Shown in pieces: positions 3,897 to 56,578 of a stretch of 64,000 bases of DNA. Origin of the DNA: Streptomyces sp. NBC_01551 (GTDB lineage: Bacteria; Actinomycetota; Actinomycetes; Streptomycetales; Streptomycetaceae). Location of the stretch: the NCBI RefSeq assembly GCF_026339935.1, contig NZ_JAPEPX010000001.1, positions 3,839,501 to 3,903,500 on the forward strand, given 5' to 3'. The notes beneath the pieces are model-generated. The model saw only the letters and a list, made by a program, of their open reading frames with translations. It had not been told where the DNA came from and ran no database searches. A program made the translations under genes and the position numbers. How positions within the stretch are numbered: position 1 is the stretch's first letter; each line of letters begins with the position of its first letter.

Positions 3897-3980
3897 CGCG
3901 GCCGGCGGCTTATGGTGGGCTGACCGATGCGGGGGACCGCCCCGGGGAGTCATCCGGGGGGATCGCCCGAGGAGGGTGCC

Positions 3981-5585
3981 GTGTACCGGTCCCGCCGAAT
4001 CCGCCGAATCCGCCGAATCCGCCGCACACGGCGTCCGTGGCGCCCGTGGCGTCACCGCGGGGCCGCCGCCGGCCTGGCAGCGGCCGTGGTGCTGGCCACC
4101 GGGCTCGGGGCCGCGCCCTCGACGCTGGCCGCGTCCGGGGACGGGGACGAGCGCTTTTACGGGCAGGGCATCCGGTGGGGCGACTGCCACGAGGGGCGCC
4201 GGGGCGTGCCCGACGGGATGCGCTGCGGGGAGATCACCGTGCCGCTCGACTACGCCGACCCGGCCAAGGGCACGGTGAAGCTGGCCCTCGGCCGCATCCC
4301 CGCCACCGGGCCCGGCAAGCGGCTCGGATCCGTGTTCCTGAACTACGGCGGCCCCGGCGGCCCCGGGATCGAGAGCCTCGCCGCCGACCCCAAGCCCTTC
4401 GCGGAGCTCGGCAAGCGGTACGACCTCGTCACCTTCGACCCCCGCGGCGTCGGCCGCAGCGAGCCCGTCTCCTGCGGGGGCTCCCTGGAGCCCGACCCGG
4501 AGGCCGGCACGGACGCCGCCTCGCAGCTGGCCGCCCTGCGCTCGCTGGTACGGCGGTGCGAGCTGCACTCCGGCCCGGTGCTCCCGTACATCGGCACCGT
4601 CAACGTCGCCCGCGACCTGGACGTCATGCGCCAGGTCCTCGGCGACGAGAAGCTCAACTACCTCGGCTTCTCCTACGGGACCCGGCTCGGCGCCGTGTAC
4701 GCCGCCCAATTCCCCGGGAAGACCGGGCGGATGGTGCTCGACGGGGTCGACACCCTCACCGAGCCGCTCGCCGAGCAGGCCCTCATATCGGCACGCGGGC
4801 AGCAGCGGGCGCTGGACAACTTCCTCGCCTGGTGCGCCCATCAGCCGGGCTGCGTGTACGGGACCAACACCCGTACGGCGAAGGAGAAGGTCAACGCCCT
4901 CGTGGCGCGGCTCGACGAGCAACCGCTGGTCGACGGCGGCTGGTACGTCACCGGGCAGGACGTGGTGGCGGCGGTCGCGACCGCCCTGTACTCGCCGGGG
5001 CTGTGGCCCGCCCTCGCGGACGGGCTGCGGCGGATCGAGCGGGACGGGGACCCGTCCGCGCTGACGGAACTGGCCGCCGAGCCGGTCGAACCGGGCGACG
5101 AGGACGGCGGCGACGATCCGGATCGGGTCCCGGCCGACAACGCCGATGCCGCGCTCACCGCCGTGAACTGCGCCGACGACCCCGACCGGGGCGAGGACAA
5201 GGCCACCGCGGCGGCGATAGAGAAGGAGATCCGGGGGCTGAGCGAAGAGTTCCGCAAAGCCTCGAAGATCTTCGGGCCGGCCCAGCTGATGACCGTACTG
5301 TCCTGCTACGGCCGCCCCGCCGGCACCGACTTCATCCGCAGGATCGACCGGCCGGCCGGAGTCCCGCGCATGCTGCTCGTCGGCACCCGCGGGGACCCGG
5401 CGACCCCGTACGAATGGACCGAGGAGACGGCGCGACGCCTCGGCGGAGCGGCGGTGGTCCTGGACCACAAGGGCGAGGGGCACACCGGCTACGCGACCTC
5501 GCCCTGCGTACGGGACTTCGTGCACCACTTCCTGGTCGACGGACGGTTGCCGGGCGGGACGCGGTCCTGCCCGGCGGGGGAGTGA
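3981..5585 (+). CDS. Secreted alpha/beta hydrolase, tripeptidyl aminopeptidase family
   Basis: A 534-residue secreted hydrolase resembling Streptomyces SlpD/SlpE and Tap peptidases. After the signal region the mature domain begins near YGQGIRWGDC. The nucleophile elbow GFSYG (Ser near residue 231), an acid residue in GDPATPYEW near 470 and the His in GEGHTGY near 499 form the expected triad, and the C-terminal half matches the TAP-like domain. I chose GTG 3981 because GAGGAGGG lies just upstream; the frame is open to 3927 but lacks a good site there. The n-region is unusually Arg/Ile-rich because of a 9-base tandem repeat. Likely role: removal of N-terminal peptides from secreted proteins. 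Confidence 0.85.
   Translation: MYRSRRIRRIRRIRRTRRPWRPWRHRGAAAGLAAAVVLATGLGAAPSTLAASGDGDERFYGQGIRWGDCHEGRRGVPDGMRCGEITVPLDYADPAKGTVKLALGRIPATGPGKRLGSVFLNYGGPGGPGIESLAADPKPFAELGKRYDLVTFDPRGVGRSEPVSCGGSLEPDPEAGTDAASQLAALRSLVRRCELHSGPVLPYIGTVNVARDLDVMRQVLGDEKLNYLGFSYGTRLGAVYAAQFPGKTGRMVLDGVDTLTEPLAEQALISARGQQRALDNFLAWCAHQPGCVYGTNTRTAKEKVNALVARLDEQPLVDGGWYVTGQDVVAAVATALYSPGLWPALADGLRRIERDGDPSALTELAAEPVEPGDEDGGDDPDRVPADNADAALTAVNCADDPDRGEDKATAAAIEKEIRGLSEEFRKASKIFGPAQLMTVLSCYGRPAGTDFIRRIDRPAGVPRMLLVGTRGDPATPYEWTEETARRLGGAAVVLDHKGEGHTGYATSPCVRDFVHHFLVDGRLPGGTRSCPAGE
3992..4026. repeat. 9-base tandem repeat in a signal peptide
   Basis: Three copies of CCGCCGAAT plus a partial fourth encode repeated Arg-Ile-Arg in the n-region of the hydrolase's signal peptide. 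Changes in copy number would keep the frame and change the positive charge of the signal peptide. Confidence 0.8.
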
Positions 5586-5596
5586 GCGGCCCGCGC

Positions 5597-6778
5597 TCAG
5601 CAGTCGGAACGTGCGGCCCGGCCCGCGAAGCGGTCGGCGAGCCAGTTGCCCGCCGCCGACGACTCGGTGATCACGCCGCTGACGTGCTCGCCGAGCAGGA
5701 TGGTCCGCCACTGGACGTTCGCGCCCTTCGCGCACCACTCGGAGCGCAGCTGCCGGCCGACGGCGTACGGGATGAGCTCGTCGCCGAGCGCGTGGTACTG
5801 GTACACGGGCGCGGCCGGGGCGGTGCGGCCGAGGCGGCTCTGGTTCAGGCGGGCCTGCCAGTCGGGCTGGTCGAGGGGGTTGCGGGTGGTGAGGTCGGAG
5901 ATCCGTTTGAAGGAGCCGGCGATGGCGTCGATGGCGACGCAGCCGTCCTTCATGCCGTTGACCAGGGCCTTGCCCGGCGCGTTGAGGTAGGAGTCGAGGC
6001 GGAGCTCGGGGAAGGCGGCGTCCTGGCCGGCGGCGGCCATGAAGATCAGGCCGGAGCCGAAGGAGCCGTCGTTGGCGGCGGCCACCTTGAGGAGGTCGGC
6101 GGGGACGCCGCCGGTGGCGGTGCCCTTGACGTTCAGCTCCGGGGCGTACGAGCCCTGCAACTCGGCGGCCCAGCTGCCGGCCTGGCCGCCCTGGGAGTAG
6201 CCCATGATGCCGACGGGGGTGTCGGGGCCGAGCCCGGCCTCGGGCAGCCGGGTCGCCGCGCGGGCGGCGTCGAGCACGGCGTGACCGGCCGAGGGGCCGA
6301 CGGTGTAGGTGTGCGTGCCCGGGGTGCCGAGGCCCTCGTAGTCGGTGACGACCACGGCCCAGCCGCGCAGGGTGAGCTGCTGGATGAGATTGGCCTCCAT
6401 GGAGGTGCCGTACGGGAGGTTGTTGCTCGGCGCGCAGGAGTCACCGAGCCCGACGGTGCCGACGGCGTAAGTGACGAGCGGCCGGGGCCCGCTGCGCCCG
6501 TCCTGCGGGACGATGACGGTCCCGGAGACGACGTTCGGTGCCCCGTCGGCGGTGGTGGAGCGGTAGTGGATCTTCCACGCCTTGGTGTTGGTGGGCTGGA
6601 GCGGCAACGGATGAAACGCGGAGGGAACGCTCCCGACGACGTCCCCGGGTCGACCGGTTTCCTCACGGGCGACGGCGGTCCCACCGACGAGCCCGCCGGT
6701 CAGGACGGCGGTGGCCAGAACAGCGCAGTGAACACGACTACGACTACGACGACTACGACGACGACTACGGATACGCAT
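5597..6778 (-). CDS. Secreted lipase, secretory lipase (LIP) family
   Basis: A 393-residue exported esterase/lipase. An extremely Arg/Ser-rich n-region precedes a hydrophobic stretch (VLATAVLTGGLVGGTAVA) that ends in a likely signal-peptidase site. The catalytic domain contains GYSQGG with the nucleophile Ser near residue 195, a late Asp in YQYHALGDELIPY and a His in LGEHVSGV, in the order seen in the fungal/actinobacterial secretory lipase family. I start at ATG 6778, which has GGAGAG 7 bases upstream; a longer open frame to 6820 lacks a site. It converges with the SlpD-like hydrolase, stop to stop 11 bases apart. Likely substrates are acylglycerols or other esters. Confidence 0.85.
   Translation of the reverse strand: MRIRSRRRSRRSRSRVHCAVLATAVLTGGLVGGTAVAREETGRPGDVVGSVPSAFHPLPLQPTNTKAWKIHYRSTTADGAPNVVSGTVIVPQDGRSGPRPLVTYAVGTVGLGDSCAPSNNLPYGTSMEANLIQQLTLRGWAVVVTDYEGLGTPGTHTYTVGPSAGHAVLDAARAATRLPEAGLGPDTPVGIMGYSQGGQAGSWAAELQGSYAPELNVKGTATGGVPADLLKVAAANDGSFGSGLIFMAAAGQDAAFPELRLDSYLNAPGKALVNGMKDGCVAIDAIAGSFKRISDLTTRNPLDQPDWQARLNQSRLGRTAPAAPVYQYHALGDELIPYAVGRQLRSEWCAKGANVQWRTILLGEHVSGVITESSAAGNWLADRFAGRAARSDC
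6737..6775. repeat. CGA/CTA triplet repeat in lipase signal sequence
   Basis: An imperfect run of CGACTACGACGAC-type triplets on the + strand encodes, on the minus strand, the Arg/Ser run directly after the lipase start codon. Its low complexity suggests slippage; triplet units keep the frame. Confidence 0.7.
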
Positions 6779-6949
6779 GGGCGGCTCTCCCAACGATTCC
6801 GGTGCGGGGGGGGTGTGCACGGGTGAGGAGAAGGTAGTGACCGCCGCCCCGGCCCGTCGCTGACCGCACAGCTCACCTTTCCTGACCCGGCGGTACCAAC
6901 GCCGACGGGGATGGATCTTTCAGCCCCCGCGGGCGTCTGAGGCGCGGGG

Positions 6950-7960
6950 TCAAGGGGCGCCGGACAGGCGGTAGGCGGCAGGGGTGGTGCCCGTCCAGCG
7001 GCGGAAGGCGCGGTGGAAGGCCGTGTCTTCCGAAAAGCCCAGGCGCGCCGCCAGTTCGGCGATCGGTTCGCCGCTCTCCGCCAGGCCGGCGATCGCGGCG
7101 TCCCGCCGGACGTGGTCCTTGAGCTGCTGGAACGAAGTGCCTTCCGCACGCAGGCGACGGCGCAGCGTCGCCGGGGAGAGCGCCAGCTGCGCCGCCACCT
7201 CCGTCAGGGCCGGGAAGGCACGCAGCCGCCGGGCCAGGGTCCGGCGGACCTGGTCCGCCACCGTCGCCGGCCCGTACTCCGGCCGGGACAGCAAGTCGAA
7301 CGGCGCCCGCCTCAGCATCGCCTCCACCGCCGCCTCGTCCCGCACCAGCGGCGCCTCCAGCCACGGCGCGCCGAACACCGCCCCCGTCCGCGCCGCCCCG
7401 AACCGCACCGGGCAGTCGAAGAGCACCGCGTACTCCTCCTCGTGCGGCGGAGCCGGATACGCGAACTCCGCGTACGCCAGCGGAATGCGGCGCCCGATCA
7501 GCCAGCTGCTCAGCCGGTGCCAGATGGCCAGCACGCACTCCGTCAGGAACCGCTCCTCGTCCCGCGCGAAGTCATTGCGCACGGTGAACCGCGCCTCGGC
7601 CCCCTCGACTTCCAGTGCCAGCTCCGGTCCGCCGGGGAACAGCCCGTAGAACGCCGCCGCCCGGGCGATCCCCGCGCCGAGATCCGCGCAGCCGAGCGAC
7701 GCGTAGCACATCATCGCGAACGTACCCGGGCGGCTGGGGACGGACGACAGCCCGAGGAACTCGTCCTGCGTGGTCCGGTACAGCGCCCGGAACAGCCGGG
7801 CGAACTGCGCGGGCGTGACCCGCGCCCGGTCGTCGCCGAGCAGCAGCGGTGGGATCTGCGCCGCCTGGAGCAGCGGCACGGTGTCGATGCCGCTGCCGCG
7901 CGCGCCCGCGAGCACGGCGCGCACATGGTGCACGGTGATCGTCCGCCTCCCCATGGCCAT
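6950..7960 (-). CDS. AraC-family transcriptional regulator (OruR/ArgR-like)
   Basis: A 336-residue regulator. Residues 1-200 match the arabinose-binding-like N-terminal domain of the AraC subgroup that includes OruR and VirS-type activators (TPAQFARLFRALYRTTQDEF). Residues 230-336 hold the double helix-turn-helix: LALSPATLRRRLRAEGTSFQ in the first and LGFSEDTAFHRAFRRWTGTT in the second. It is divergent from an acyl-CoA ligase across a 116-base spacer, the usual arrangement for an activator and its target. In actinobacteria this subgroup often responds to fatty acids or aromatic acids. An ATG two codons downstream is an alternative start. Confidence 0.85.
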   Translation of the reverse strand: MAMGRRTITVHHVRAVLAGARGSGIDTVPLLQAAQIPPLLLGDDRARVTPAQFARLFRALYRTTQDEFLGLSSVPSRPGTFAMMCYASLGCADLGAGIARAAAFYGLFPGGPELALEVEGAEARFTVRNDFARDEERFLTECVLAIWHRLSSWLIGRRIPLAYAEFAYPAPPHEEEYAVLFDCPVRFGAARTGAVFGAPWLEAPLVRDEAAVEAMLRRAPFDLLSRPEYGPATVADQVRRTLARRLRAFPALTEVAAQLALSPATLRRRLRAEGTSFQQLKDHVRRDAAIAGLAESGEPIAELAARLGFSEDTAFHRAFRRWTGTTPAAYRLSGAP

Positions 7961-8076
7961 GGCTCCGACGGTAGCCCCCGTGAGCGCTGCGGTCAGCGGG
8001 CGTGACGCTTCCGGTCATGCCGCCGGGGCGCTCGCGCTGCCTAGCGTCTTCGTACGGACCTCGGGAGGCGGCGCGG

Positions 8077-9816
8077 ATGGCGGGACGGGTGCGACCGGAG
8101 ACGCTGGCGGTGTTCGCGGAGTGGACGGGGGAGCGGTACGGGCCGCAGCCCGCCCTCCGCTTCCGCCAGGGGGACAGCGGCTGGGGCGGCGTCTCGTACG
8201 CCGAACTGCGCGCCCGCGTCCGTGAGGTGGGCCGGGCCCTGCTCGGGCCACGGCTGGGGATCGCGCCGGGTGAGCGGGTGGCGGTGCTGGCCGAGACCCG
8301 CCCGGAGTGGACGTACACCCACTTCGGCGTGCTCGCGGCGGGGGCCGTGCCGGTGCCCGTGTACCCGACGGCGGGCGAGGAGGAGCTGGCCTGGGTGCTG
8401 TCGGACTCGGAGTCGGTCGTGGCGGTCTGCGACGACGCCGCGCAGGCGGCCCGGGTGGAGGCGCTGCGGGGGAAGCTGCCGGCGCTGCGGGCGGTCGTGG
8501 AGATGGACGCACTGGCCTCGCTGCCGCGCGCCCCCGAGGCCGAACTCCTCGCACGGGCGGCGGCGGTGACCCCGGCGGCGGACGCCTCGATCGTCTACAC
8601 CTCGGGGACCACGGGCCCGCCGAAGGGCTGCCGCCTCACGCACGGCAACCTCGGCGCGATCCAGGACGCGACGCTCCCGCTGGTGCGCGGCGGGCCGGGG
8701 GACTCGACATACCTGTACCTCCCGCTGGCGCACCTGCTGGCGCAGCTGATCCAGTTCACGACGCTGCTGGAGGGCGGGGAGCTCTGCTACTTCGGGGGCC
8801 GGATCGAGGACGTGCTCGCGGAGCTGGCGCAGGCCCGGCCGACGCACCTGCCCTCGGTGCCCAGGCTGTTCGAGAAGCTGCACGCGGTGGTGCTGTCGCT
8901 GGCGCAGGCCGAGGAGGGCGGGCGCGAGCGGTTCGCGGAGGCGGTTCGGCTGGGCGTACTCGCGGCGCAGGGCCGGCTTCCGGAGTCGGACACGGCGGCT
9001 TGGGAGGCGGCGGAGAAGTCCCTGTACTCCCTGGTCAGGGGCGCGTTCGGGGGTCGGCTGCGGTGGGCGCTGACCGGCGGCGCCCCGATCGCGCCGGCCA
9101 CGCTGGACTTCCTGCGCGCCTGCGGGATCTCCGTGTTCGAGGGGTACGGGATGACCGAGTCCGGCGGGGTGATCAGCCTCAACCACCCGGACGCGGTGCG
9201 GTACGGGACGGTGGGCCGCCCGATCGCGGGCTGCGAGGTCCGCATCGCGCCGGACGGCGAGGTCCTGGCCCGGGGGCCGATGGTGTTCCCCGGCTACCAC
9301 GGCAACCCGGCGGCGACGGCGGAGGTCCTGGACGCGGAGGGCTGGCTGCACACGGGCGACCTGGGCGCGCTCGACGCCGACGGCTACCTGTCGATCACGG
9401 GCCGGAAGAAGGAGCTGATCATCACCTCGGCGGGCAAGAACATCACCCCGACGGAGGTCGAGTTCGCCCTCCAGGGCTCCCGGTACGTCTCGCGCGCGGT
9501 CCTGATCGGGGACCACCGCCCGCACCCGGTGGCGCTGATCGCCCTGGACGCGGAGGAGATCGCGGCCTGGGCCGCCCGCGAGTGCCTCGACCCCGGCCCC
9601 GCCCCCGGCGGGCACCCGGCGGTCCGCGCCCTGATCGCGGACGCGGTCGCGGCGGCCAACGCGAGCGTCTCCCGCCCGGCCCGGGTCCGCGCGTTCCACA
9701 TCCTGGCCGAGGACCTCTCCATCGCGGCGGGCACCCTCACCCCGACCCTGAAACTCCGACGCGCGGCCGTCGCGGCGCGCTACGCGGCGGAGATCGACGC
9801 TCTGTACGCGAGTTGA
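8077..9816 (+). CDS. Long-chain acyl-CoA ligase (AMP-forming), second copy
   Basis: A 579-residue ANL-superfamily ligase. YTSGTTGPPKG lies near residue 173, GYGMTESGG near 357 and the hinge/catalytic lysine segment SITGRKKELIITSAGKNITP near 441. It is clearly paralogous to the ligase at 1458 but shorter at the N-terminus. The open frame extends back to 8002, but ATG 8077 has GGGAGG upstream and gives the family-like N-terminus. It is divergent from the AraC regulator, which is probably its activator. The substrate is likely a medium- or long-chain fatty acid. Confidence 0.9.
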   Translation: MAGRVRPETLAVFAEWTGERYGPQPALRFRQGDSGWGGVSYAELRARVREVGRALLGPRLGIAPGERVAVLAETRPEWTYTHFGVLAAGAVPVPVYPTAGEEELAWVLSDSESVVAVCDDAAQAARVEALRGKLPALRAVVEMDALASLPRAPEAELLARAAAVTPAADASIVYTSGTTGPPKGCRLTHGNLGAIQDATLPLVRGGPGDSTYLYLPLAHLLAQLIQFTTLLEGGELCYFGGRIEDVLAELAQARPTHLPSVPRLFEKLHAVVLSLAQAEEGGRERFAEAVRLGVLAAQGRLPESDTAAWEAAEKSLYSLVRGAFGGRLRWALTGGAPIAPATLDFLRACGISVFEGYGMTESGGVISLNHPDAVRYGTVGRPIAGCEVRIAPDGEVLARGPMVFPGYHGNPAATAEVLDAEGWLHTGDLGALDADGYLSITGRKKELIITSAGKNITPTEVEFALQGSRYVSRAVLIGDHRPHPVALIALDAEEIAAWAARECLDPGPAPGGHPAVRALIADAVAAANASVSRPARVRAFHILAEDLSIAAGTLTPTLKLRRAAVAARYAAEIDALYAS

Positions 9817-47456: not shown

Positions 47457-48062
47457 CTAGTGGCCGTGCGCGTGCGCGGGCTTCGCCGGGGCGGCGGCCT
47501 TGCCCGGGCAGGTCAGTGCGGGGTTCCAGTTGTGGAAGCGCCCGGCCGGGTTCTCCTTGTACGCCCACATGTGCAGGTCGTAGTGCTTGGGCATGCCCGC
47601 CCAGTGGCCCGGCATGGGCCCGTCGAAGGGCAGCCCGAACATGCTGGGCCGGTCATCGGTGGTCTTCAGGTCCTGGTCCCGGTCGGTGGACATCCACTCC
47701 ACGGTCTGGAGCCGGCGACGGCCGTTGCGGTCCTTCTCCGTGCTGTAGAGGAGCGCGGTCGGCCTGCCGGGGTCCTTCGAACCCCAGTTGGCCTGCTTGA
47801 CGTAGTGGTAGCCCATGGCGCCCACCCCGAACGGGTTGGTCATGCAGTCCTGGCCGTGGGGGACGTACCCGTCCTTGAGGGCCTGCCGCTCGTCCGCGTA
47901 CTTGGCCGTCACCGCGATCGCCGTCGCCATGTCCCGCATGGCCTTCCGGTCGCGCGGGTCGGGCGCGGGCCCCTCGACCCCGTGGGCCGGGGCCACGGCG
48001 ACCAGGCCGAGCGACACGGCGGCCGCGCAGGTGACGAAGGTCTTCAGGCTGCGTACGGTCAT
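47457..48062 (-). CDS. Secreted protein with His-rich tail
   Basis: A 201-residue exported protein. The signal peptide (about 1-28) ends near AHG. The mature domain has the pattern GQDCMTNPFGVGAMGYHYVK, then ALLYSTEKDRNGRRRLQTVE and HYDLHMWAYKENPAGRFHNW, with two cysteines that can pair (QDCMTN and LTCPGK). The C-terminus is HAHGH, which could bind a metal such as copper. This family is widespread in bacteria without a known role. It is monocistronic, converging with nuoN. Confidence 0.7.
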   Translation of the reverse strand: MTVRSLKTFVTCAAAVSLGLVAVAPAHGVEGPAPDPRDRKAMRDMATAIAVTAKYADERQALKDGYVPHGQDCMTNPFGVGAMGYHYVKQANWGSKDPGRPTALLYSTEKDRNGRRRLQTVEWMSTDRDQDLKTTDDRPSMFGLPFDGPMPGHWAGMPKHYDLHMWAYKENPAGRFHNWNPALTCPGKAAAPAKPAHAHGH

Positions 48063-48185: not shown

Positions 48186-50951
48186 TCAGGCGCGGGCCGC
48201 GTACGCCCGTACGTCCGCGTCGGGGTCGGCGACCGCCGTGGCGAGGGCCTTGCGGGCGCCCTCCGCTTCCCGGTGGGTCAGCAGCGCGAGGACGGCTGCC
48301 TTGCGCACATCGGCGTTGGCGTCGGCCAGTGCGCCCGCCAGCGCAGCCACGGCCACCCCGGGGTCCGCGGCCGACAGCGCGGCCGCGGCCCCGGCCCGGA
48401 CCTGCCAGGCGGGGTCGGCCAGCGCCGCCACGGCGGCGTCGGCGTACCGCCCCGGGCAGCCGGCCCGGGCCAGGGCCCCGAGGGCGGCGCCCCGCACCAG
48501 CGGATCCGGGTCGCCGAGCAGCGGGTCCAGCGGGGCCGGAGCCGGGGCGTGCACCGCGGCCAGTCCCCTGGCGACCGTCACCCGGACCTCACGCGCCGGA
48601 TCCCCGGCGGCTGCGGACAGCGCCGACACCGCGTCCACGGAGACCAGCGCCCGCACGGCGTGGACACGGACCTCCACGTCCGGGTCGGCCAGTGCGGCGG
48701 CGTACAGCCCGGTGTCCCCCAGCCGCAGCACCCGCAGGGCTTCGAGCGCCGCCGAGCGCACCGCCGGGTCGGGCACGGCGAGGGCGGCGCGCAGCCCGGG
48801 GCCCAGCTCCGGCCCGCCCGGCAGGACCTCCAGCAGCTCGCGCAGCGCGGCCGCGGCCGCGCCCCGCACGGCGGGGTCGCGGTCCACGAGCCGGGCGGCC
48901 AGCGCCGGCCCGGCCCCGGCGGGGACGGTCTCGCCGAGCGCGGCCACCGCGGCGGCCCGCACGCCCGGATCGGGGTCGTCGAGATAGGGGACCAGGACGT
49001 CGAGGCCGGGTGCCTCTTCCACCAGGGCGAGCAGTTCCAGGATCCGGGGCGACGCGTCCCCCGTACGGCCCGCGGCCCGGCCCTGCGGTCCGCCGGTCGC
49101 CTCGGGCGGGGCGGCCTCCCCGCCCACGGGCCCGGCTCCGGGTGCCCCCGGCCCTTCCGCCCGCGCCGCCGGAGGCGACAGGCGGGGGCCGGCCGTCGCC
49201 ACCGGGACCGGTTCGACCTCGCCCAGGTGCCGTTCGGGGCCGCCGAGCGGGGTGAACCCGTCCACCGGCACCAGGTACGGCTCCACCGCCCGCGCGGTGA
49301 ACTCCATCGCCCCCGAAGCCGACTTGCGCAGGTCCAGGTGGTGCAGCCAGCCCGCGTCGTTCCGCTCCGGATGGTCGGTCCGCTCGTGGTACAGGCCCCA
49401 GCGGGACTCGGTCCGGGCCAGCGAGGCCCGGGCGGCCATCTCCGCGCAGTCCCGGATGAAGGACACCTCCGCGCACCGCATGAGCTCGTGCGCGGTGGTG
49501 GCCCCCATCCGCTCGATCTCCCCGGCCATGCGGGCGAACGCCTCGACGGCCAGCGACAGCTTCGCGCCGGTCTTGGGCGGAGCCACGTAGTCGTTGACGA
49601 AGCGCCGGAGCTTGTACTCCACCTGCGGCTGCGGCGGCCCGTCCGGGTTGCGCAGCGGCCGGTAGACCAGCTCGTGGGCCGCCGCCAGCTGGTCGGCCGG
49701 CAACTCGCCCTCGTACGCGGTGTACCGGGACGCGTCCTCGCCCGCCAGGTCGCCGAAGACGAACGCCCCGATCATGTAGTTGTGCGGTACGGAGGCCAGG
49801 TCCCCGGCCGCGTACAGCCGGGGCACGGTGGTGCGGGCGTGCGCGTCGACCCGTACGCCCGAGGCGGAGTGGCCGCCGCACAGGCCGATCTCCGAGATGT
49901 GCATCTCGATGTCGTGGGTGCGGTAGTCGTGGCCCCGGTTCGCGTGGAAGGTGCCGCGCGTCGGCCGCTCGGTGGTGTGCAGGATCGATTCGAGGGCGGC
50001 GACGGACTCCTCGGGAAGGTGGCTTAGCTTGAGGTACACCGGGCCCCGGTCAGAGGCGAGTTCGGCCGCGAACTCCGACATCATCTGGCCCGACCAGTAG
50101 TCGCAGTCCACGAACCGCTCGCCGTGCCGGTTGACCTGGTAGCCGCCGAAGGGGTTCGCGACGTAGGCGCACGCCGGGCCGTTGTAGTCCTTGATCAGCG
50201 GATTGATCTGGAAGCACTCGATCCCGGTCAGCGCGGCGCCCGCGTGGTAGGCCATGGCGTAGCCGTCGCCCGCGTTCGTGGGGTTCTCGTAGGTTCCGTA
50301 GAGGTATCCGGAAGCCGGGAGTCCGAGTCGTCCGCAAGGTCCGGTGGCGAGGATCACCGCGCCCGCGCGGACCGTCACGAAGGCGCCGGTACGGGTGTTG
50401 AGGGCGGCGGCGCCGACGGCCCGGCCGTCCTCGGGCGAGGTCAGGACGCGGACGGGCATCACCCGGTTCTCGATGCGGATGCGCTCGCGCATCTCGCGGC
50501 GGCGCAGCTGCCGGTAGAGGACCTTCTTGACGTCCTTGCCCTCGGGCATCGGCAGCACGTACGAGCCGGAGCGGTGGACCTGGCGGACCGCGTACTCGCC
50601 GTGCTCGTCCTTCTCGAACTTCACCCCGTACGACTCCAGGCGCCGCACCATCGCGAAGCCGCGGGTGGCGGTCTGGCGGACCGTGGACTGGTCGACGACG
50701 CCGTCGTTGGCGCGGGTGATCTCGGCGACGTAGTCGTCGGGCTCGGCGCGGCCGGGGATGACGGCGTTGTTGACCCCGTCCATGCCCATGGCGAGGGCGC
50801 CGGAGTGGCGCACGTGGGCCTTCTCCAGCAGCAGGACCCGCGCGCCGCGCTCGGCGGCGGTCAGCGCGGCCATGGTGCCGGCCGTGCCGCCGCCGATGAC
50901 GAGGACGTCGCAGGAGAGTTCCTCGGCGTCGCCGAGCGCGGGGATGTCCAT
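48186..50951 (-). CDS. AprA/fumarate-reductase-like flavoprotein fused to HEAT repeats
   Basis: A 921-residue protein. Residues 1-580 are a flavoprotein of the fumarate reductase/succinate dehydrogenase/APS reductase alpha class. FAD binding is DVLVIGGGTAGTMAALTAAE near residue 15, HSGALAMGMDGVNN near 50 recalls APS reductase AprA, and a second FAD block is RLYAAGDLASVPHNYMIGAF. After a Pro/Ala-rich linker (about 585-632), residues 634-921 are some nine HEAT repeats (DPDPGVRAAAVAALGE, DRDPAVRGAAAAALRE). Relatives usually lack such a domain, which may bind a partner. It is the last gene of an operon with a dicluster ferredoxin and an ABC importer. The substrate is unknown. I infer oxidation or reduction of an imported sulfonate-like compound. 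Confidence 0.85.
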   Translation of the reverse strand: MDIPALGDAEELSCDVLVIGGGTAGTMAALTAAERGARVLLLEKAHVRHSGALAMGMDGVNNAVIPGRAEPDDYVAEITRANDGVVDQSTVRQTATRGFAMVRRLESYGVKFEKDEHGEYAVRQVHRSGSYVLPMPEGKDVKKVLYRQLRRREMRERIRIENRVMPVRVLTSPEDGRAVGAAALNTRTGAFVTVRAGAVILATGPCGRLGLPASGYLYGTYENPTNAGDGYAMAYHAGAALTGIECFQINPLIKDYNGPACAYVANPFGGYQVNRHGERFVDCDYWSGQMMSEFAAELASDRGPVYLKLSHLPEESVAALESILHTTERPTRGTFHANRGHDYRTHDIEMHISEIGLCGGHSASGVRVDAHARTTVPRLYAAGDLASVPHNYMIGAFVFGDLAGEDASRYTAYEGELPADQLAAAHELVYRPLRNPDGPPQPQVEYKLRRFVNDYVAPPKTGAKLSLAVEAFARMAGEIERMGATTAHELMRCAEVSFIRDCAEMAARASLARTESRWGLYHERTDHPERNDAGWLHHLDLRKSASGAMEFTARAVEPYLVPVDGFTPLGGPERHLGEVEPVPVATAGPRLSPPAARAEGPGAPGAGPVGGEAAPPEATGGPQGRAAGRTGDASPRILELLALVEEAPGLDVLVPYLDDPDPGVRAAAVAALGETVPAGAGPALAARLVDRDPAVRGAAAAALRELLEVLPGGPELGPGLRAALAVPDPAVRSAALEALRVLRLGDTGLYAAALADPDVEVRVHAVRALVSVDAVSALSAAAGDPAREVRVTVARGLAAVHAPAPAPLDPLLGDPDPLVRGAALGALARAGCPGRYADAAVAALADPAWQVRAGAAAALSAADPGVAVAALAGALADANADVRKAAVLALLTHREAEGARKALATAVADPDADVRAYAARA

Positions 50952-50962
50952 GGTGGGGCCCT

Positions 50963-51730
50963 TCAGAGGGAGTCGATGATCTGCCGGCGGAGGTCGGCGC
51001 GGGCGGGGTGCGGGGCGCGCGAACGGGGCTGGGGGACGTCCAGCACGCGGACCGTGTCACCGCCGAGGAGGGCGACGCGGTCGCCGAGGAACAGGGCCTC
51101 GTCGACGTCGTGGGTCACGAAGACGACGGTGGCGCCGGTGCCGGCGAGGACGTCCACGAGGAGGTCCTGCATCCCGGCGCGGGTCTGGGCGTCGAGCGCG
51201 CCGAACGGTTCGTCCATGAGGACGGCGCGGGGGCGCGCGGCGAGGGCGCGGGCCAGCTGGACGCGCTGGCGCTGGCCGCCGGAGAGCTGGTGCGGGAGCC
51301 TCCGCGCGTGCTCGGCGAGGCCGACGCGGGCCAGCCAGTCCTCGGCGCCACGGCGCCGCTCGCCGCGCGGGACGCGGCGGATGGCGAGGGGCAGCTCGAC
51401 GTTGCCGCGGACGGTGCGCCAGGGCAGGAGGGCGTCGTCCTGGAACACCAGCGCCCGGTCGGCGTCCGGGCGGGTGATCTCCCGCCCGTCCTGCCGTACG
51501 GTGCCGGCGAGCGGGGGCAGCAGCCCGGCCAGGGTGCGCAGCAGCGTGGACTTCCCGCACCCGGAGGGCCCCACGACGGCCAGCACCTCCCCGGCGCGGA
51601 CCCGGAGCCCGAGCCCGTCGAGGACGGGGCTGCCGTCCCGGCCGAGCCGGACCCCGTCCAGGTGGAGGTCGGCGCCGGGGGGTGCGGTGGCGGGCGCGGT
51701 GCCGGTGAGCGCCGGCGCGGTCGCGGGCAT
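50963..51730 (-). CDS. ABC transporter ATP-binding protein, sulfonate/taurine/nitrate type
   Basis: A 255-residue importer ATPase of the SsuB/TauB subfamily. Walker A is GPSGCGKST, the Q-loop is ALVFQDDALLPWRTV, the signature is LSGGQRQRVQLARAL, Walker B is AVLMDEPFGALD and the H-loop is FVTHDVDEALFLGDRV. The LLPW-x-V and EALFLGDRV elements are characteristic of this subfamily. It is 11 bases from the flavoprotein gene, so import and the redox step are co-expressed. Confidence 0.93.
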   Translation of the reverse strand: MPATAPALTGTAPATAPPGADLHLDGVRLGRDGSPVLDGLGLRVRAGEVLAVVGPSGCGKSTLLRTLAGLLPPLAGTVRQDGREITRPDADRALVFQDDALLPWRTVRGNVELPLAIRRVPRGERRRGAEDWLARVGLAEHARRLPHQLSGGQRQRVQLARALAARPRAVLMDEPFGALDAQTRAGMQDLLVDVLAGTGATVVFVTHDVDEALFLGDRVALLGGDTVRVLDVPQPRSRAPHPARADLRRQIIDSL

Positions 51731-51826
51731 GGGTCACTCCTGTCGGTCGAGTCGTCGGACGCCGGTCGCGCCGCGGGTGTGCCGCTGCGCGGACGGTTCC
51801 GGGGTGTCCCGGGGTGTCCCGGAGGG

Positions 51827-52654
51827 TCACGGAGCGGCTGGTTCGCGGGGCGCGCGGCGCGGTCGCGGGCGGGACGACGCCGCGGTGGGGGCGCGCGACG
51901 GCAGCCACCGCGTCAGCCGCAGGCCCAGGCGTTCCACCGCCGTCGACGTCAGCCACCCCAGGGCGCCGATGGTGGCCATGCCGACGAAGACGCCGGGGTA
52001 GTCCACCACCGTGTAGTCCTGCCAGGTCCGGTACCCGACCCCGTACTCGCCGGAGATCATCTCCGCCGAGATCACGCAGATCCAGGACACCCCGATCCCG
52101 ACCGACAGCCCGCCGAAGACCCCCGGGAGCGCCCCCGGCAGGACCACCGAGAACAGCACGCGCCGCCGCCCCCCGCCCATCGTCAGCACCGCCTCCTCCC
52201 ACACCGGGGACTGAGCCGCCACCGCGTGCCGCGTCGAGACCAGCACCGGGAAGAACGCCGCCGCGCAGGTGATGAAGACGATCCCCTGCTCGTTGGACGG
52301 GAAGAGCAGGATCGCGACCGGGACCAGCGCGATCGCCGGGATCGGCCGCAGCACCTCCACGAGCGGTCCCACCAGGTCGCAGACGGTCCGCGACCGGGCG
52401 ATCGCCGTGCCCGCCGCCACCCCCAGCACCGCCGCCAGCGCGAAGCCCGCCGCGATCCGGCGCAGGCTGTAGCCGAGGTCCTGCCAGTACGGGCCGGTCG
52501 ACGCCCGCTCCGCGAACCTGGCCGCGACCTCCCCGACGGTCGGGAACTGCTCGAAGCGGAGCCACAGGTTCACGTCGAGCGAAGTCAGCAGCTGCCACAG
52601 TGCGAGGGCCGCCCCGAGGGACGCCACCCGCAGCAGCCGGCGACCCGGGCTCAT
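51827..52654 (-). CDS. ABC transporter permease, SsuC/TauC type
   Basis: A 275-residue permease with six helices. The EAA-like coupling loop is around AVLTMGGGRRRVLFSVVLPG and the N-terminal pattern LWQLLTSLDVNLWLRFEQFP matches SsuC/TauC proteins. Its ATG overlaps the stop of the substrate-binding gene by 3 bases. Ninety-six bases, including a duplicated GGGGTGTCCC, separate it from the ATPase gene. Confidence 0.92.
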   Translation of the reverse strand: MSPGRRLLRVASLGAALALWQLLTSLDVNLWLRFEQFPTVGEVAARFAERASTGPYWQDLGYSLRRIAAGFALAAVLGVAAGTAIARSRTVCDLVGPLVEVLRPIPAIALVPVAILLFPSNEQGIVFITCAAAFFPVLVSTRHAVAAQSPVWEEAVLTMGGGRRRVLFSVVLPGALPGVFGGLSVGIGVSWICVISAEMISGEYGVGYRTWQDYTVVDYPGVFVGMATIGALGWLTSTAVERLGLRLTRWLPSRAPTAASSRPRPRRAPREPAAP

Positions 52655-54018
52655 GAGGCCAGGCCTGCGGCCTCGGCATACGACACGATCCGCGCGGCGG
52701 ACCCCCCGCGCCGGTCGACGTACGACTTGGCACCCGACCCGGTGACGAACGCCCGCAGTTCGGAACCCTCCGCCACCCACACGGCCTTGTCCGCGAACCA
52801 GAGCGTGCCGGTCACCGCGTCCGGGACGTAGGCCGCCCGGACCTCCTTGCCGCGCGCCGCCCTGAGCAGGGCCGCGGGGGAGTCGAACGTCTCGGCGCGG
52901 GAGGCGCCCTGCACCCACAGCTCGGCGCGGGGCGTACCCGCGCCCGCCGACGGGTACGCGGCCGCGCCCGCCGACACCCGCTCCAGCGGCTCCGCGTCCA
53001 CGAACGCGTCCACGTCCACGTCGTCGACCAGCTTCGCGTCCTTCAGCACCGGCACGTCCTGCTTCAGCGCCTCGATCAGCTCCGGCCGCAGCGCGGGGTC
53101 GAAGGTCGCGATGCCGTTCGCGCCGTTGTAGAGGTAGACCACCTCCGCCGGAAGCCCGGTCTCCTTCGCCACCGACTCGGCCGCCGCGACCGGCTCGGCG
53201 CGCAGGTAGTCCGTCGCCTTTCGCTGCGCCCGCAGGAAGTCGTCCAGTACGCCGGGCCGCGCGGCCGCGAACTTCTGCCGTACGGTCACGCCGTGGAAGG
53301 TCGGCCGGTTCAGCTCGGCGCCGTCGTACAGGGCCTTGGCCTTCCCCTCGTACACCAGCTGCCCCGGCCAGGCCACGAACTGCGACAGCGCGTCCGCGCT
53401 GCCCGCCTGGAGCGCCGAAGCGCCCACGCTGGGCTGCTGGTTGAGCTTCTGGATCCCCTTCTCCGGATCGATCCCGGCGCGCCGCAGGGCCCGTACGAGG
53501 GTGCCGTCCGCCGCCGAGCCGACGGAGGTCGAGACCTTGCGGCCCCGCAGGTCGGCGAGGGAGTCCAGCTTCGAACCGGGCGCCGTCACCACGGTGTTCA
53601 GGCCGCCGCGCAGGTTGTAGCCGGTCACGGACACGAGGCGGGTCGGCTGCTTCAGCTCCCTGCCGCGCGCCGCGTTGATGAGCAGCGGAAAGTCGCCCAT
53701 CGAGCCGATGTCGATCTTCCCGGCGGTCATCTGGGCGGTGATGGGCGCGCCCGTGGCGTAGTCCTGCCAGTCGACCTTGTACGTGACCCCGTCCTTCTTG
53801 CCGCGCGCGGCCAGCTCCTCCTCGAAGTAGCCGAGGGAACGCAGCAGGGTGCCGGCGGTGACGGTGTTGATCGTCTTGGACTGGTAGCCGACGGTCACGG
53901 TCACCGTCTTCGGGCCGCCCTTGGCGTCGGCGTCGCCGCCGCACGCGGTGACCAGCGGTGCGAGCAGCAGCAGGAGGGCGGCGGGTGCGGCGGGTGCGAG
54001 GGCTCTCGTACGGCGCAT
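52651..54018 (-). CDS. ABC substrate-binding lipoprotein with NosL-like C-terminal domain
   Basis: A 455-residue lipoprotein with lipobox LVTAC (Cys near residue 26). Residues about 35-340 form a NMT1/SsuA-like binding protein (VGYQSKTINTVTAGTLLRSL; MTAGKIDIGSMGDFPLLINA). Typical relatives end near 340. The extra residues from about 365 (FDSPAALLRAARGKEV, AAYVPDAVTGTLWFADKAVW, AFVTGSGAKSYVDRRGG) resemble the NosL fold, known as a copper chaperone in nitrous oxide reductase maturation. The Cys/Met metal ligands are not obvious. I start at ATG 54018, which gives a proper signal peptide. The ligand is not predictable from sequence. Confidence 0.8.
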   Translation of the reverse strand: MRRTRALAPAAPAALLLLLAPLVTACGGDADAKGGPKTVTVTVGYQSKTINTVTAGTLLRSLGYFEEELAARGKKDGVTYKVDWQDYATGAPITAQMTAGKIDIGSMGDFPLLINAARGRELKQPTRLVSVTGYNLRGGLNTVVTAPGSKLDSLADLRGRKVSTSVGSAADGTLVRALRRAGIDPEKGIQKLNQQPSVGASALQAGSADALSQFVAWPGQLVYEGKAKALYDGAELNRPTFHGVTVRQKFAAARPGVLDDFLRAQRKATDYLRAEPVAAAESVAKETGLPAEVVYLYNGANGIATFDPALRPELIEALKQDVPVLKDAKLVDDVDVDAFVDAEPLERVSAGAAAYPSAGAGTPRAELWVQGASRAETFDSPAALLRAARGKEVRAAYVPDAVTGTLWFADKAVWVAEGSELRAFVTGSGAKSYVDRRGGSAARIVSYAEAAGLAS

Positions 54019-54032
54019 CGGATGGGGGCCTT

Positions 54033-54260
54033 TCACCGGAGCAGGTAGGGCATGTTGACGGTCACCGCGCCCGTGGGGCAGCGGGCGGCGCACGGGCCGC
54101 AGTACCAGCACTCGTCCACGTGCATGTACGCCTTGCCGTTGTCCTCGCGGATCGCGAGCGAGTCGAGCGGACACATGTCGACGCAGAGGGTGCAGCCGTC
54201 GATGCACAGGGATTCGTCGATGGTCACGGGCACGTCGGCGCGCTGGGGGACCAGAGGCAC
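54033..54260 (-). CDS. Small dicluster 4Fe-4S ferredoxin, AprB-like
   Basis: A 75-residue ferredoxin with two cluster motifs: CIDGCTLCVDMCP (residues about 19-31) and CWYCGPCAARCP (about 52-63). The first has Cys-x3-Cys-x2-Cys-x3-Cys rather than the usual x2 spacing. Short ferredoxins of this kind accompany AprA-type flavoproteins and probably take electrons from the flavoprotein encoded in the same operon. GTG 54260 follows TGGAGA. It sits between the GntR regulator (32 bases) and the binding-protein gene (14 bases). Confidence 0.9.
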   Translation of the reverse strand: MPLVPQRADVPVTIDESLCIDGCTLCVDMCPLDSLAIREDNGKAYMHVDECWYCGPCAARCPTGAVTVNMPYLLR

Positions 54261-54292
54261 GGCTGTCTCCAGGGAAGGGGTGAGGGGAAGGC

Positions 54293-55075
54293 TCAGAGGG
54301 AGCGGCGCAGCAGGCCGCTCATGGTGATCCGGTCGCCGCGGAAGCGGATGAACTCCAGGTCCACGGGCCTGCCGTCGCGCAGGTGGGTGAGGCGTTCCAG
54401 CATCAGGACGGCGGCCCCGCGCGGGGCCTGGAGCACGGCGGCGGAGTGCGCGTCGGCGTTGACGGCCTCCAGGGTGATCTCGGCGTGGCCGAGGGGCTGC
54501 CCGGTCAAGGTCTCCAGCAGCCGGAAGACGTCCGTGTTCTCCAGGTCGCAGCCGAGCAGTCCGGCGCCGATGTCGAGGGGGACGTAGGTGAGGTCGAGGG
54601 AGAGCGGCAGCCCGTTCAGCCGCCGCAGCCGTTCGATGTAGAGCACCTCGGCGTGCTCGGGCAGCCGCAGCCGGCCGGCGACGGGGGCGGGCGCGCGGAC
54701 GGGGCCGACGGTACGGACCTCGTTGGTCACCCGGCCGTGTTCGTGCAGGGTCTCGGCGAGGCCCTGGAGGCGGTCGAGGCCGTGCGGGTACTTCTCGCAG
54801 ACTACGACGGTGCCCACGCCCGGCCGACGCTCCACGAGCTGCTCGCCGCGCAGCAGGTCGAGGGCCTGGCGGACGGTGTTGCGGCCGGCGCCGTAGTCGG
54901 CGGCGAGGGTGTCTTCGAGGGGCAGGACCCCGTCGGGGTAGCCGCCCGCCAGGATTTGGTGGCGCAGCAGGTCGGCGAGCTGCCGCGCCTGGTCCGCGCG
55001 CAGCCGGCGCCGGCGCGCGGCGGCGACCGGGACGGTGTGCTCACGGGTGCGTTCGGCTGGCATGGCACGGAACAT
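54293..55075 (-). CDS. GntR/HutC-family regulator with UTRA domain
   Basis: A 260-residue regulator. The winged helix (about 25-90) reads GVLPLEDTLAADYGAGRNTV then LDLLRGEQLVERRPGVGTVV. The UTRA ligand domain (about 105-250) has the pattern VLYIERLRRLNGLPLSLDLT and YVPLDIGAGLL. UTRA domains sense small metabolites, often the pathway substrate. It is the first gene of the operon with ferredoxin, transporter and flavoprotein, so it likely represses its own operon. An ATG four codons downstream (55063) is an alternative start. Confidence 0.88.
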   Translation of the reverse strand: MFRAMPAERTREHTVPVAAARRRRLRADQARQLADLLRHQILAGGYPDGVLPLEDTLAADYGAGRNTVRQALDLLRGEQLVERRPGVGTVVVCEKYPHGLDRLQGLAETLHEHGRVTNEVRTVGPVRAPAPVAGRLRLPEHAEVLYIERLRRLNGLPLSLDLTYVPLDIGAGLLGCDLENTDVFRLLETLTGQPLGHAEITLEAVNADAHSAAVLQAPRGAAVLMLERLTHLRDGRPVDLEFIRFRGDRITMSGLLRRSL

Positions 55076-55095: not shown

Positions 55096-55113
55096 GGTGT
55101 TGCCGCAGTGTTG
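55096..55113. promoter_or_regulatory. Direct repeats GTGTTGC, 11 bases apart, before the GntR operon
   Basis: GTGTTGC begins at 55096 and again at 55107, one helical turn apart, flanked by GTGG and CCAC that are mutually complementary. The site lies 21 bases upstream of the regulator start and may be its operator. Confidence 0.45.
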
Positions 55114-55213
55114 CGCCACCGGGCGGCGCTCACGCACCGCTGTGACCTGTGGTTTCGGCGGGGCGGCGGGAAGATCCGCCACCCCGCCGACGCGGGTCGT
55201 CCCGAGGTGTGGA

Positions 55214-56437
55214 CTAGCGGGATCCCACGATGCGGCCGATGACCTCGCCGAGGCCCACCCGGGTGCCGTTGGCGCCGGGCGCCCACGCGGTCAGGGTGAC
55301 GGTGTCGCCGTCCTCCAGGAAGGTGCGCTTGCCGTCGGCGAGTTCGATCGCGTCGCGGCCGTTCCAGGTCAGCTCCAGCAGCGAGCCGCGCTGGTCGACG
55401 TCCGGGCCGCTGACGGTGCCGGAGCCGTAGACGTCGCCGGTGCGCAGGGAGGCGCCGTTGACCGTCATGTGCGCCAGCTGCTGGGCGGCGGTCCAGTACA
55501 TGGTGGCGAACGGCGGGCGCGCCACCTCCTGGCCGTTGATGGAGACGGTGATGTGCAGGTCGAAGCCGCCGGGGCGGTCGCTGTCGGCGTCGTCGAGGTA
55601 GGGCAGCAGCGGGAAGTCCCGGGCGGGCGGGGCGACGCGGGCCGCGTCGAGGGCCTCCAGCGGGGTGACCCAGGCGGAGACGGAGGTCGCGAAGGACTTG
55701 CCGAGGAAGGGGCCCAGCGGCACGTACTCCCAGGCCTGGATGTCGCGCGCGGACCAGTCGTTGAGCAGGAACAGGCCGAAGACGTGGTCCTCGAAATCGG
55801 CCAGCGGGACCGGGCTGCCCAGCTCGGAGGGGGCGCCGACGACGAAGCCGACCTCGGCCTCGATGTCGAGCTTGACGGACGGGCCGAAGACGGGCGCCGG
55901 GTCGGTGGGCGCCTTGCGCTGCCCGCAGGGGCGTACGACGTCGGTGCCGGACACGACGATGGTGCCGGAGCGGCCGTGGTAACCGATCGGCAGGTGCTTC
56001 CAGTTGGGCGTGAGCGCGTCGCCGTCGGGGCGGAACATCTTGCCGACGTTGGTGGCGTGGTGCTCGCTCGCGTAGAAGTCGACGTAGTCGGCGACCTCGT
56101 ACGGGAGGTGCAGCGCGACCTCGTCCAGCGGCAGCAGGTGCGGCTCGACGGTCGGGCGGTGACCGGGGTCGGTGACCCAGGCGGTCAGCGCGCGGCGCAC
56201 GTCCCGCCAGGCGGTGCGGCCGGCGGCCAGCAGCGGGTTGAGCGAGGCCTGTCCGAGCAGTCCGGCGTAGGGGGACCCGAGCGCGACCGCGGCCGCCCCG
56301 GCGTCGAGCACGTGCCCGCCGATGCGCACGCCGATCCGGCGGCGGGGGTCCCCGGAGGTGGAGAAGACGCCGTACGGGAGGTTGTGCGGGCCGAACGGAT
56401 CGCCCTCGGGAACATCGAGGGGGCTCTGCTGGGGCAT
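55214..56437 (-). CDS. fahA: Fumarylacetoacetase
   Basis: A 407-residue hydrolase that splits fumarylacetoacetate to fumarate and acetoacetate, the last step of tyrosine/homogentisate breakdown. Family motifs are FGPHNLPYGVFST at the N-terminus, DYVDFYASEHHATNVGKMFR with the metal Asp and catalytic His, LDIEAEVGFVVG, and the late YGSGTVSGP. ATG 56437 has GAGG 9 bases upstream; the frame opens at GTG 56452. The other tyrosine catabolic genes are not in the window, so the gene stands alone here. Confidence 0.95.
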   Translation of the reverse strand: MPQQSPLDVPEGDPFGPHNLPYGVFSTSGDPRRRIGVRIGGHVLDAGAAAVALGSPYAGLLGQASLNPLLAAGRTAWRDVRRALTAWVTDPGHRPTVEPHLLPLDEVALHLPYEVADYVDFYASEHHATNVGKMFRPDGDALTPNWKHLPIGYHGRSGTIVVSGTDVVRPCGQRKAPTDPAPVFGPSVKLDIEAEVGFVVGAPSELGSPVPLADFEDHVFGLFLLNDWSARDIQAWEYVPLGPFLGKSFATSVSAWVTPLEALDAARVAPPARDFPLLPYLDDADSDRPGGFDLHITVSINGQEVARPPFATMYWTAAQQLAHMTVNGASLRTGDVYGSGTVSGPDVDQRGSLLELTWNGRDAIELADGKRTFLEDGDTVTLTAWAPGANGTRVGLGEVIGRIVGSR

Positions 56438-56578
56438 GGGGTACTGCCTCACTTTCGATGCGGTCCGGGGGTGTCCCGGGGGCTGGTTGACACGTTACGT
56501 GGCTGATGGGGCCTGTGGGAGGCCGGATTCGGGCGCTATTTGTAGGACTTGTCCAACGAGGTCCGTATCCTTGGCGCC

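Follow-up and report, generated by a model that had tools for sequence, protein, structure and literature searches.

A conserved redox-import operon of Streptomyces with a sulfonate-type importer, a ferredoxin and an AprA-like flavoprotein, and its possible role in sulfur scavenging

The 64,000-nucleotide stretch of Streptomyces sp. NBC_01551 analysed here (the window) contains an operon of six genes, encoding a GntR-family regulator, a ferredoxin, the substrate-binding protein (SBP), permease and ATPase of an ATP-binding cassette (ABC) importer, and a large flavoprotein (Table 1). This operon is a genuine redox-import system that is conserved and widespread, and the name of its flavoprotein family, fumarate reductase, is probably wrong for it. 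Its best reading is sulfur scavenging, in which the flavin enzyme probably releases the sulfur of a compound taken up by the importer; to the full mechanism proposed below we assign a probability of about 0.5.

A scan of contigs from one genome per species returned at least 574 related stretches, of which the 80 most similar by flavoprotein, all Actinomycetes according to their record titles, were kept. The order GntR, ferredoxin, SBP, permease, ATPase, flavoprotein, HEAT on a single strand recurs in 79 of these 80 loci and is, therefore, far from a chance arrangement; in the lone exception (L070) a contig end interrupts the operon at the ATPase. Foreign genes are inserted among the operon members in two loci. 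The insert of Antrihabitans (L081, 2131-6914), between ferredoxin and SBP, contains a second sulfonate-type importer together with genes that by eye resemble those of asparaginase and an M20 peptidase, and in Nocardia salmonicida (L074) a TnpB-like transposon reading frame (7780-9216, minus strand; by eye) lies between permease and ATPase. The distribution of the operon is patchy, its order stable within the loci examined; the cut-off of the NCBIfam model PRK13800, which describes the flavoprotein, was passed in 35 of 101 sampled Streptomyces genomes and in 5 of 149 genomes forming a thin sample of the phylum. One Streptomyces draft genome (G099:C51) has flavoprotein (6517-8253) and HEAT domain (8307-9209) in separate frames, which may reflect a gene split in two, a frameshift or faulty assembly.

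Outside the Actinomycetes, 13 proteobacterial and cyanobacterial loci were taken from plasmid or chromid records (L011, L012, L013, L101-L107, L110, L111 and L117), 11 of them annotated. All 13 combine the flavoprotein and the ferredoxin with a separate HEAT gene. The first-pass annotation had named the linkage of importer and flavoprotein elsewhere as a point to check, and it recurs not only in the 79 actinobacterial loci but also in 11 of these 13, where a complete importer lies within ~10 kb. L012 has importer parts limited to SBPs, while L105 carries an IS110 element after its HEAT gene and a partial ABC transporter ~7 kb off. Sulfur-related genes are, as a raw count, neighbours in 6 of the 11 annotated unfused loci: TauE/SafE adjoins four (L013, L101, L102 and L106), two of which (L101 and L102) also have a YeiH-type sulfate exporter, L103 has 3-mercaptopropionate dioxygenase and rhodanese, and L011 a DmoA-type monooxygenase and an SsuA-type SBP. 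These neighbours would fit the organosulfur type of substrate that had been suggested from the window. Of the 13 loci, 3 have Mrp/NBP35, which carries the Pfam name “NUBPL iron-transfer,” and 6 have DUF971; both families are linked to iron-sulfur proteins. In the cyanobacterial loci L101 (6673-8673) and L102 (6301-8337) an unusually long LysR-domain protein (666 residues in L101) adjoins the flavoprotein.

The flavoprotein is a fusion of a flavin adenine dinucleotide (FAD) enzyme with HEAT repeats. Among solved structures it best matches the alpha subunit of the 3′-phosphoadenosine 5′-phosphosulfate (PAPS) reductase of Methanothermococcus thermolithotrophicus (MtPAPSR; 8a8o, E 1.1e-51), behind which rank AprA (E 1.5e-31) of adenosine 5′-phosphosulfate (APS) reductase, NadB and SdhA. 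An IQ-TREE phylogeny of 39 rows was computed, with 20 rows of the flavoprotein family (the window, L010, 7 of the 80 actinobacterial loci, and 11 of the 13 unfused loci, L105 and L111 being left out), 11 of the 120 PAPSR-like proteins listed and one AprA. The 20 family rows form a single clade (support 100/100), sister, with a join of 92/86, to a clade of AprA and the 11 PAPSR-like rows (100/99), and Sdh, Frd and NadB are split from both at 99/96. In this tree, which the first-pass annotation had asked for, the flavoprotein thus stands outside any clade of known function, beside AprA and PAPS reductase. The nine fused actinobacterial rows also form one clade (100/100), which is consistent with a single HEAT fusion event.

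In profile searches, the flavoprotein exceeds the cut-offs of PRK13800 (NF010374; 1576.4 vs 1196 bits, over residues 1-921 and thus spanning the HEAT fusion) and PRK08275 (NF006131; 860.2 vs 587 bits), and remains under those of PRK06854, the MtPAPSR type (255.9 vs 557 bits), and aprA TIGR02061 (120.3 vs 641.75 bits). The first two models bear the name “fumarate reductase/succinate dehydrogenase flavoprotein subunit,” which implies a function whose residues are missing here; this label is very probably wrong for the family. They are also silent about the operon. The designation as undescribed, therefore, stands in part only: NCBIfam already holds the flavoprotein family, but no description of the operon was found in the accessible text of open-licence papers, and the portions available of two sulfur-starvation omics papers (PMC8557817, PMC7661421) name no such flavoprotein.

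The active-site columns were taken from the tree alignment of the 20 family members. We take N74, W234, R265, R317 and H398 to be the active-site residues of AprA, in a numbering that agrees with 2fja alignments, and the His of the FHPT motif and an Arg to be the catalytic residues of fumarate reductase. In all 20 members the equivalents of AprA N74 (N61), K267 (K254), D268 (D255), P272 (P259) and H398 (H361) are kept, whereas R265, R317 and W234 are replaced by L252, M290 and Y221, respectively; the 11 PAPSR-like rows keep N74, R265, R317, W234 and H398 without exception. At the fumarate-reductase His column all 20 members have N250, and at the Arg column they have N, G or S. The alignment is gappy around R317 and the FrdA Arg, so that these two columns are less certain than those of R265, N74 and H398; pairwise alignment places the R317 equivalent one residue on (M291). 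Because R265, R317, W234 and the fumarate-reductase His are replaced throughout, neither the APS-reductase nor the fumarate-reductase reaction fits, but part of the APS-reductase site is retained. Both reactions had been argued against from gene content, and both arguments gain from these replacements. In MtPAPSR itself, the residues thought by its authors to be catalytic in APS reductases are reported to be retained, and its FAD N5 is proposed to attack the sulfur (PMC10322725).

The ferredoxin is 57-73% identical across four other lineages, and its eight cysteines and Trp52, next to a cluster cysteine, are invariant in five of five. Its matches include the AprB and MtPAPSR beta chains 3gyx_B, 8a8o_C and 1jnr_B; archaeal polyferredoxins score higher, and the AprB model TIGR02060 is not reached (31 bits, cut-off 135.65). 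The operon resembles MtPAPSR and AprAB in its FAD domain family and two-cluster ferredoxin partner, but differs from them by adding an importer and a HEAT domain and in lacking ATP sulfurylase.

The importer has the SsuABC/TauABC fold, and the closest structure-search neighbours of the SBP (rows spanning residues 36-357) are sulfonate and taurine binding proteins. The fold is a predicted one; a single-sequence model of the SBP was uninformative (pLDDT 36.6). A complete importer of this kind had been proposed, and the fold agrees; the SBP nevertheless stays under the NCBIfam SsuA_fam cut-off (132 vs 163.5 bits), as do all four homologues tried, and the best NCBIfam relatives of the ATPase, taurine, nitrate and sulfonate ATPases, are all under their cut-offs. 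The operon further differs from SsuABC and TauABC in having no SsuD/SsuE or TauD and in the SBP C-terminal domain, ~95 residues beyond the SsuA-like fold. This domain is probably NosL-like. The SBP alignment covered 16 of the 20 loci listed and 23 of the 120 proteins listed. The NosL profile PF05573 (cut-off 24 bits) is exceeded by the homologous SBP L120 (33.1 bits) and matched below cut-off by L011 (17.2 bits, profile positions 24-124) and L013 (18.6 bits, positions 24-129); the domains of the window and L010 gave no match to it, and the CxxCGM motif of the NosL proteins L118 and L119 is absent from the domain. A NosL-type SBP (match in two frames) also occurs with permease and ATPase in a distant actinobacterial genome (L121; 2631-5565, minus strand, and 6922-7791, plus strand), with an adjoining TauE-like reading frame (by eye).

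Upstream of the regulator gene, 280 bp were compared in 80 sequences (the window and 79 loci). The core TGGCGCAA is present in 61 of these, always on the coding strand and never on the opposite one, against a background of 0.017 per 280 bp for both strands together; as the rows are related, these counts are not independent and express conservation rather than separate occurrences. It is missing from 19 regions, 18 of them outside Streptomyces. The consensus GTGGCGCAAcAcTnCnGCAACACC combines an imperfect dyad with direct-repeat symmetry, and the site in the window is unique in the 7.05 Mb genome, allowing up to 3 mismatches. The simplest reading would be a dedicated local regulator acting at a putative operator.

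In the same genome, two PF01507 genes (PAPS/APS reductase or CysD-type) are clustered at 5.34 Mb with a NIR_SIR gene, within ~2.3 kb of this sulfite/nitrite-reductase-family gene, and a third PF01507 gene is found elsewhere; the genome scan gave no gene above the aprA cut-off. Because of this cluster, the operon is probably dispensable for sulfate or APS reduction in its host, which could use operon-derived sulfite at once.

The layout of the operon agrees with the first-pass annotation, which had described six same-strand genes with short gaps, a UTRA regulator and a 75-residue dicluster ferredoxin. From GntR to flavoprotein the gaps are 32, 14, -4, 96 and 11 bp, with ATGA shared by the permease start and the SBP stop, and third-position GC is 0.95-0.97 for all six genes. 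Scans for promoters and terminators found none. The class given for the flavoprotein holds for its FAD core, but three features had been overlooked: the fusion to HEAT repeats, the additional domain of the SBP and the operator-like site. Just downstream, a 201-residue protein (47457-48062, minus strand) with a signal-like start by eye gave no Pfam or NCBIfam match; homologues 35-45% identical lie close to the operon in 5 of the 80 loci. Directly upstream on the same strand is a fumarylacetoacetase gene (55214-56452; TIGR01266, 432 bits). It was set aside as a clue, since 25 of the 80 flanks contain it, at distances that vary and in Streptomyces only, and its proximity is probably plain synteny.

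Table 1. Features of the operon and its upstream region in the window.
Feature	Position in window	Strand	Basis
GntR-family regulator with UTRA effector domain, 260 aa	54293..55075	-	PF07702 E 1.6e-34, PF00392 E 1.7e-14
Ferredoxin, two [4Fe-4S] clusters, 75 aa	54033..54260	-	Fer4_7 E 6.2e-10 (Pfam)
Substrate-binding protein (SBP), 455 aa	52651..54018	-	NMT1-type (Pfam); predicted SsuA/TauA-type fold ~36-347 + C-terminal domain 361-455
ABC importer permease, 275 aa	51827..52654	-	PF00528 E 2.3e-16, query frame six codons longer
ABC importer ATPase, 255 aa	50963..51730	-	PF00005 E 9.1e-33
Flavoprotein, 921-aa fusion, whole gene	48186..50951	-	Pfam FAD_binding_2 + Succ_DH_flav_C + HEAT
Flavoprotein core, residues 1-565	49257..50951	-	FAD_binding_2 + Succ_DH_flav_C
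Flavoprotein HEAT-repeat domain, residues ~651-921	48186..49001	-	HEAT_2 E 7.8e-28, best stretch 651-740
Putative operator GGTGGCGCAACACTGCGGCAACACC	55096..55120	-	upstream of regulator gene

In the mechanism that we propose, an anion that is sulfonate-like, or contains oxidised sulfur in another form, would be captured extracellularly by the SBP and carried inward by the ABC importer. We infer that the flavoprotein acts on this imported anion. In the cytosol it would pair with the two-cluster ferredoxin for electron transfer in the manner of AprAB, the HEAT domain possibly serving as a scaffold and electrons presumably flowing such that reduced FAD attacks or reduces the substrate, yielding sulfite or a similar product. 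The ordinary sulfite reductase of the cell would assimilate the sulfite, and surplus may be exported by TauE or YeiH where these are encoded nearby. The UTRA-GntR protein would sense substrate or product and control the operon through the upstream site. Support for sulfur scavenging may be drawn from the conserved N74 and H398 equivalents, the position of the clade as putative sister to AprA and PAPS reductase, the predicted SBP fold and the ferredoxin matches, together with the 79 of 80 loci in conserved order, the sulfur-related neighbours, the genes for iron-sulfur carriers, the host's potential to use sulfite and the conserved, unique operator-like site.

Several observations weigh against this reading. 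The join to AprA and PAPSR is under the firm-support threshold of the tree tool, which also warns that the long branch of the single AprA row may make the join false. With R265, R317 and W234 lost in all 20 members, sulfite-adduct chemistry need not persist. Nitrate, bicarbonate and thiamin-related compounds are also among the ligands of SBPs with this fold. Next to the sulfur-related neighbours stand four annotated unfused loci (L104, L105, L107 and L111) with no further sulfur gene and L012 with SBPs only, and among the 82 actinobacterial flanks (the 80 loci, L009 and L010) YeiH-like genes occur in two and TauE-like genes in none. Finally, L121 has the importer and no flavoprotein on the 15 kb read.

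More specifically, the flavoprotein-ferredoxin pair might be a new, oxygen-independent class of AprA-type desulfonase that cleaves the S-C (or S-N, S-O) bond of small imported sulfonates to sulfite, a proposal that we regard as tentative. A rival to the proposed mechanism gives the pair the role proposed for AsfA/AsfB, that of an oxygenase partner: it would only supply a separate monooxygenase with electrons (or reduced flavin), and this monooxygenase would cut the C-S bond of arylsulfonates. The asfRABC cluster (Pseudomonas putida S-313; C. metallidurans) is described in a review as an SBP, a transporter, a reductase/ferredoxin and a LysR regulator and as needed for aromatic sulfonates; an insertion in asfA abolishes growth on these, whereas aliphatic sulfonates are still used (PMC4267179). 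It shares with our operon the reductase, the ferredoxin, the sulfonate-type SBP, a single regulator and the theme of sulfur scavenging, and differs in its LysR instead of GntR/UTRA regulator, no HEAT domain being mentioned in the text available. LLM-type monooxygenase matches occur in 14 and DmoA-type matches in 11 of the 82 actinobacterial flanks, SfnB-like ones in 8; the conserved operon itself, however, is without any oxygenase, and to our knowledge an AprA-like fold is not typical of the reductase of an oxygenase. In the C. metallidurans genome paper, AsfA and AsfB are named as Rmet_4334/5 (PMC2864759). The locus L019 of this species (~3900-5866, minus strand) has a flavoprotein of the same superfamily beside its own small two-cluster ferredoxin and next to ABC importer ATPase and permease genes, while L018 has a 212-residue protein with two such motifs and L020 none; we take L019 to be Rmet_4334/5. 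This AsfA candidate shows an identity of only 27.5% across 418 residues, and in the tree it is set off by a very long branch, for which the tool likewise warns of false joins. With a best match of 31% over the FAD region, the whole chromid has no close member of the flavoprotein family, and L019 looks like a remote second family with similar logic. The operon resembles the description of asf yet is probably not asf, and a role as oxygenase partner seems rather unlikely. Also rejected as the same operon was the “alkane sulfonate” operon Bphy_7232-37 of Paraburkholderia phymatum, reported as lower in a nifA mutant (PMC8305402): a tblastn search of the last 30 kb of pBPHY01, an unannotated record in which the gene location was inferred, found an ABC importer but no flavoprotein, ferredoxin or HEAT gene of the family.

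The two reactions turned down above for their lost catalytic residues and their tree placement can be weighed in the same manner. A fumarate-reductase-like enzyme or dehydrogenase whose target is a C-C double bond or a C-H in the carboxylate or sulfonate taken up, and which leaves the C-S bond uncut, would agree with the fold shared with SdhA/FrdA and with the NCBIfam name; it is improbable given the Asn250 and N/G/S columns, a clade outside Sdh/Frd/NadB and an operon with no membrane anchor or FrdB/SdhB-type subunit. An assimilatory APS/PAPS reductase that merely adjoins a sulfate or sulfonate importer would explain why both subunits of 8a8o are matched, but it is very unlikely in view of the three residues lost here and kept in all 11 PAPSR-like rows, the scores far under PRK06854 and aprA, and the three PF01507 (CysH/CysD-type) matches in the genome, two of them close to the sulfite/nitrite-reductase-family gene.

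If the desulfonase proposal is true, the arginines of the nucleotide site would have been exchanged for uncharged residues, and a reductive alternative to SsuD, TauD and the oxygenase route of Asf would be present in Actinomycetes, Proteobacteria and Cyanobacteria under a fumarate reductase annotation. The flavoprotein family is large (at least 6486 proteins at E <= 1e-3, remoter flavoproteins included) and is found in common soil and plant-associated bacteria. The system offers a clean test case, since it consists of a single operon with a single candidate operator and its complete set of parts is open to joint deletion or purification. Should it indeed release the sulfur of sulfonates, a step central to sulfur cycling in soil would gain a further route, perhaps one without need of oxygen.

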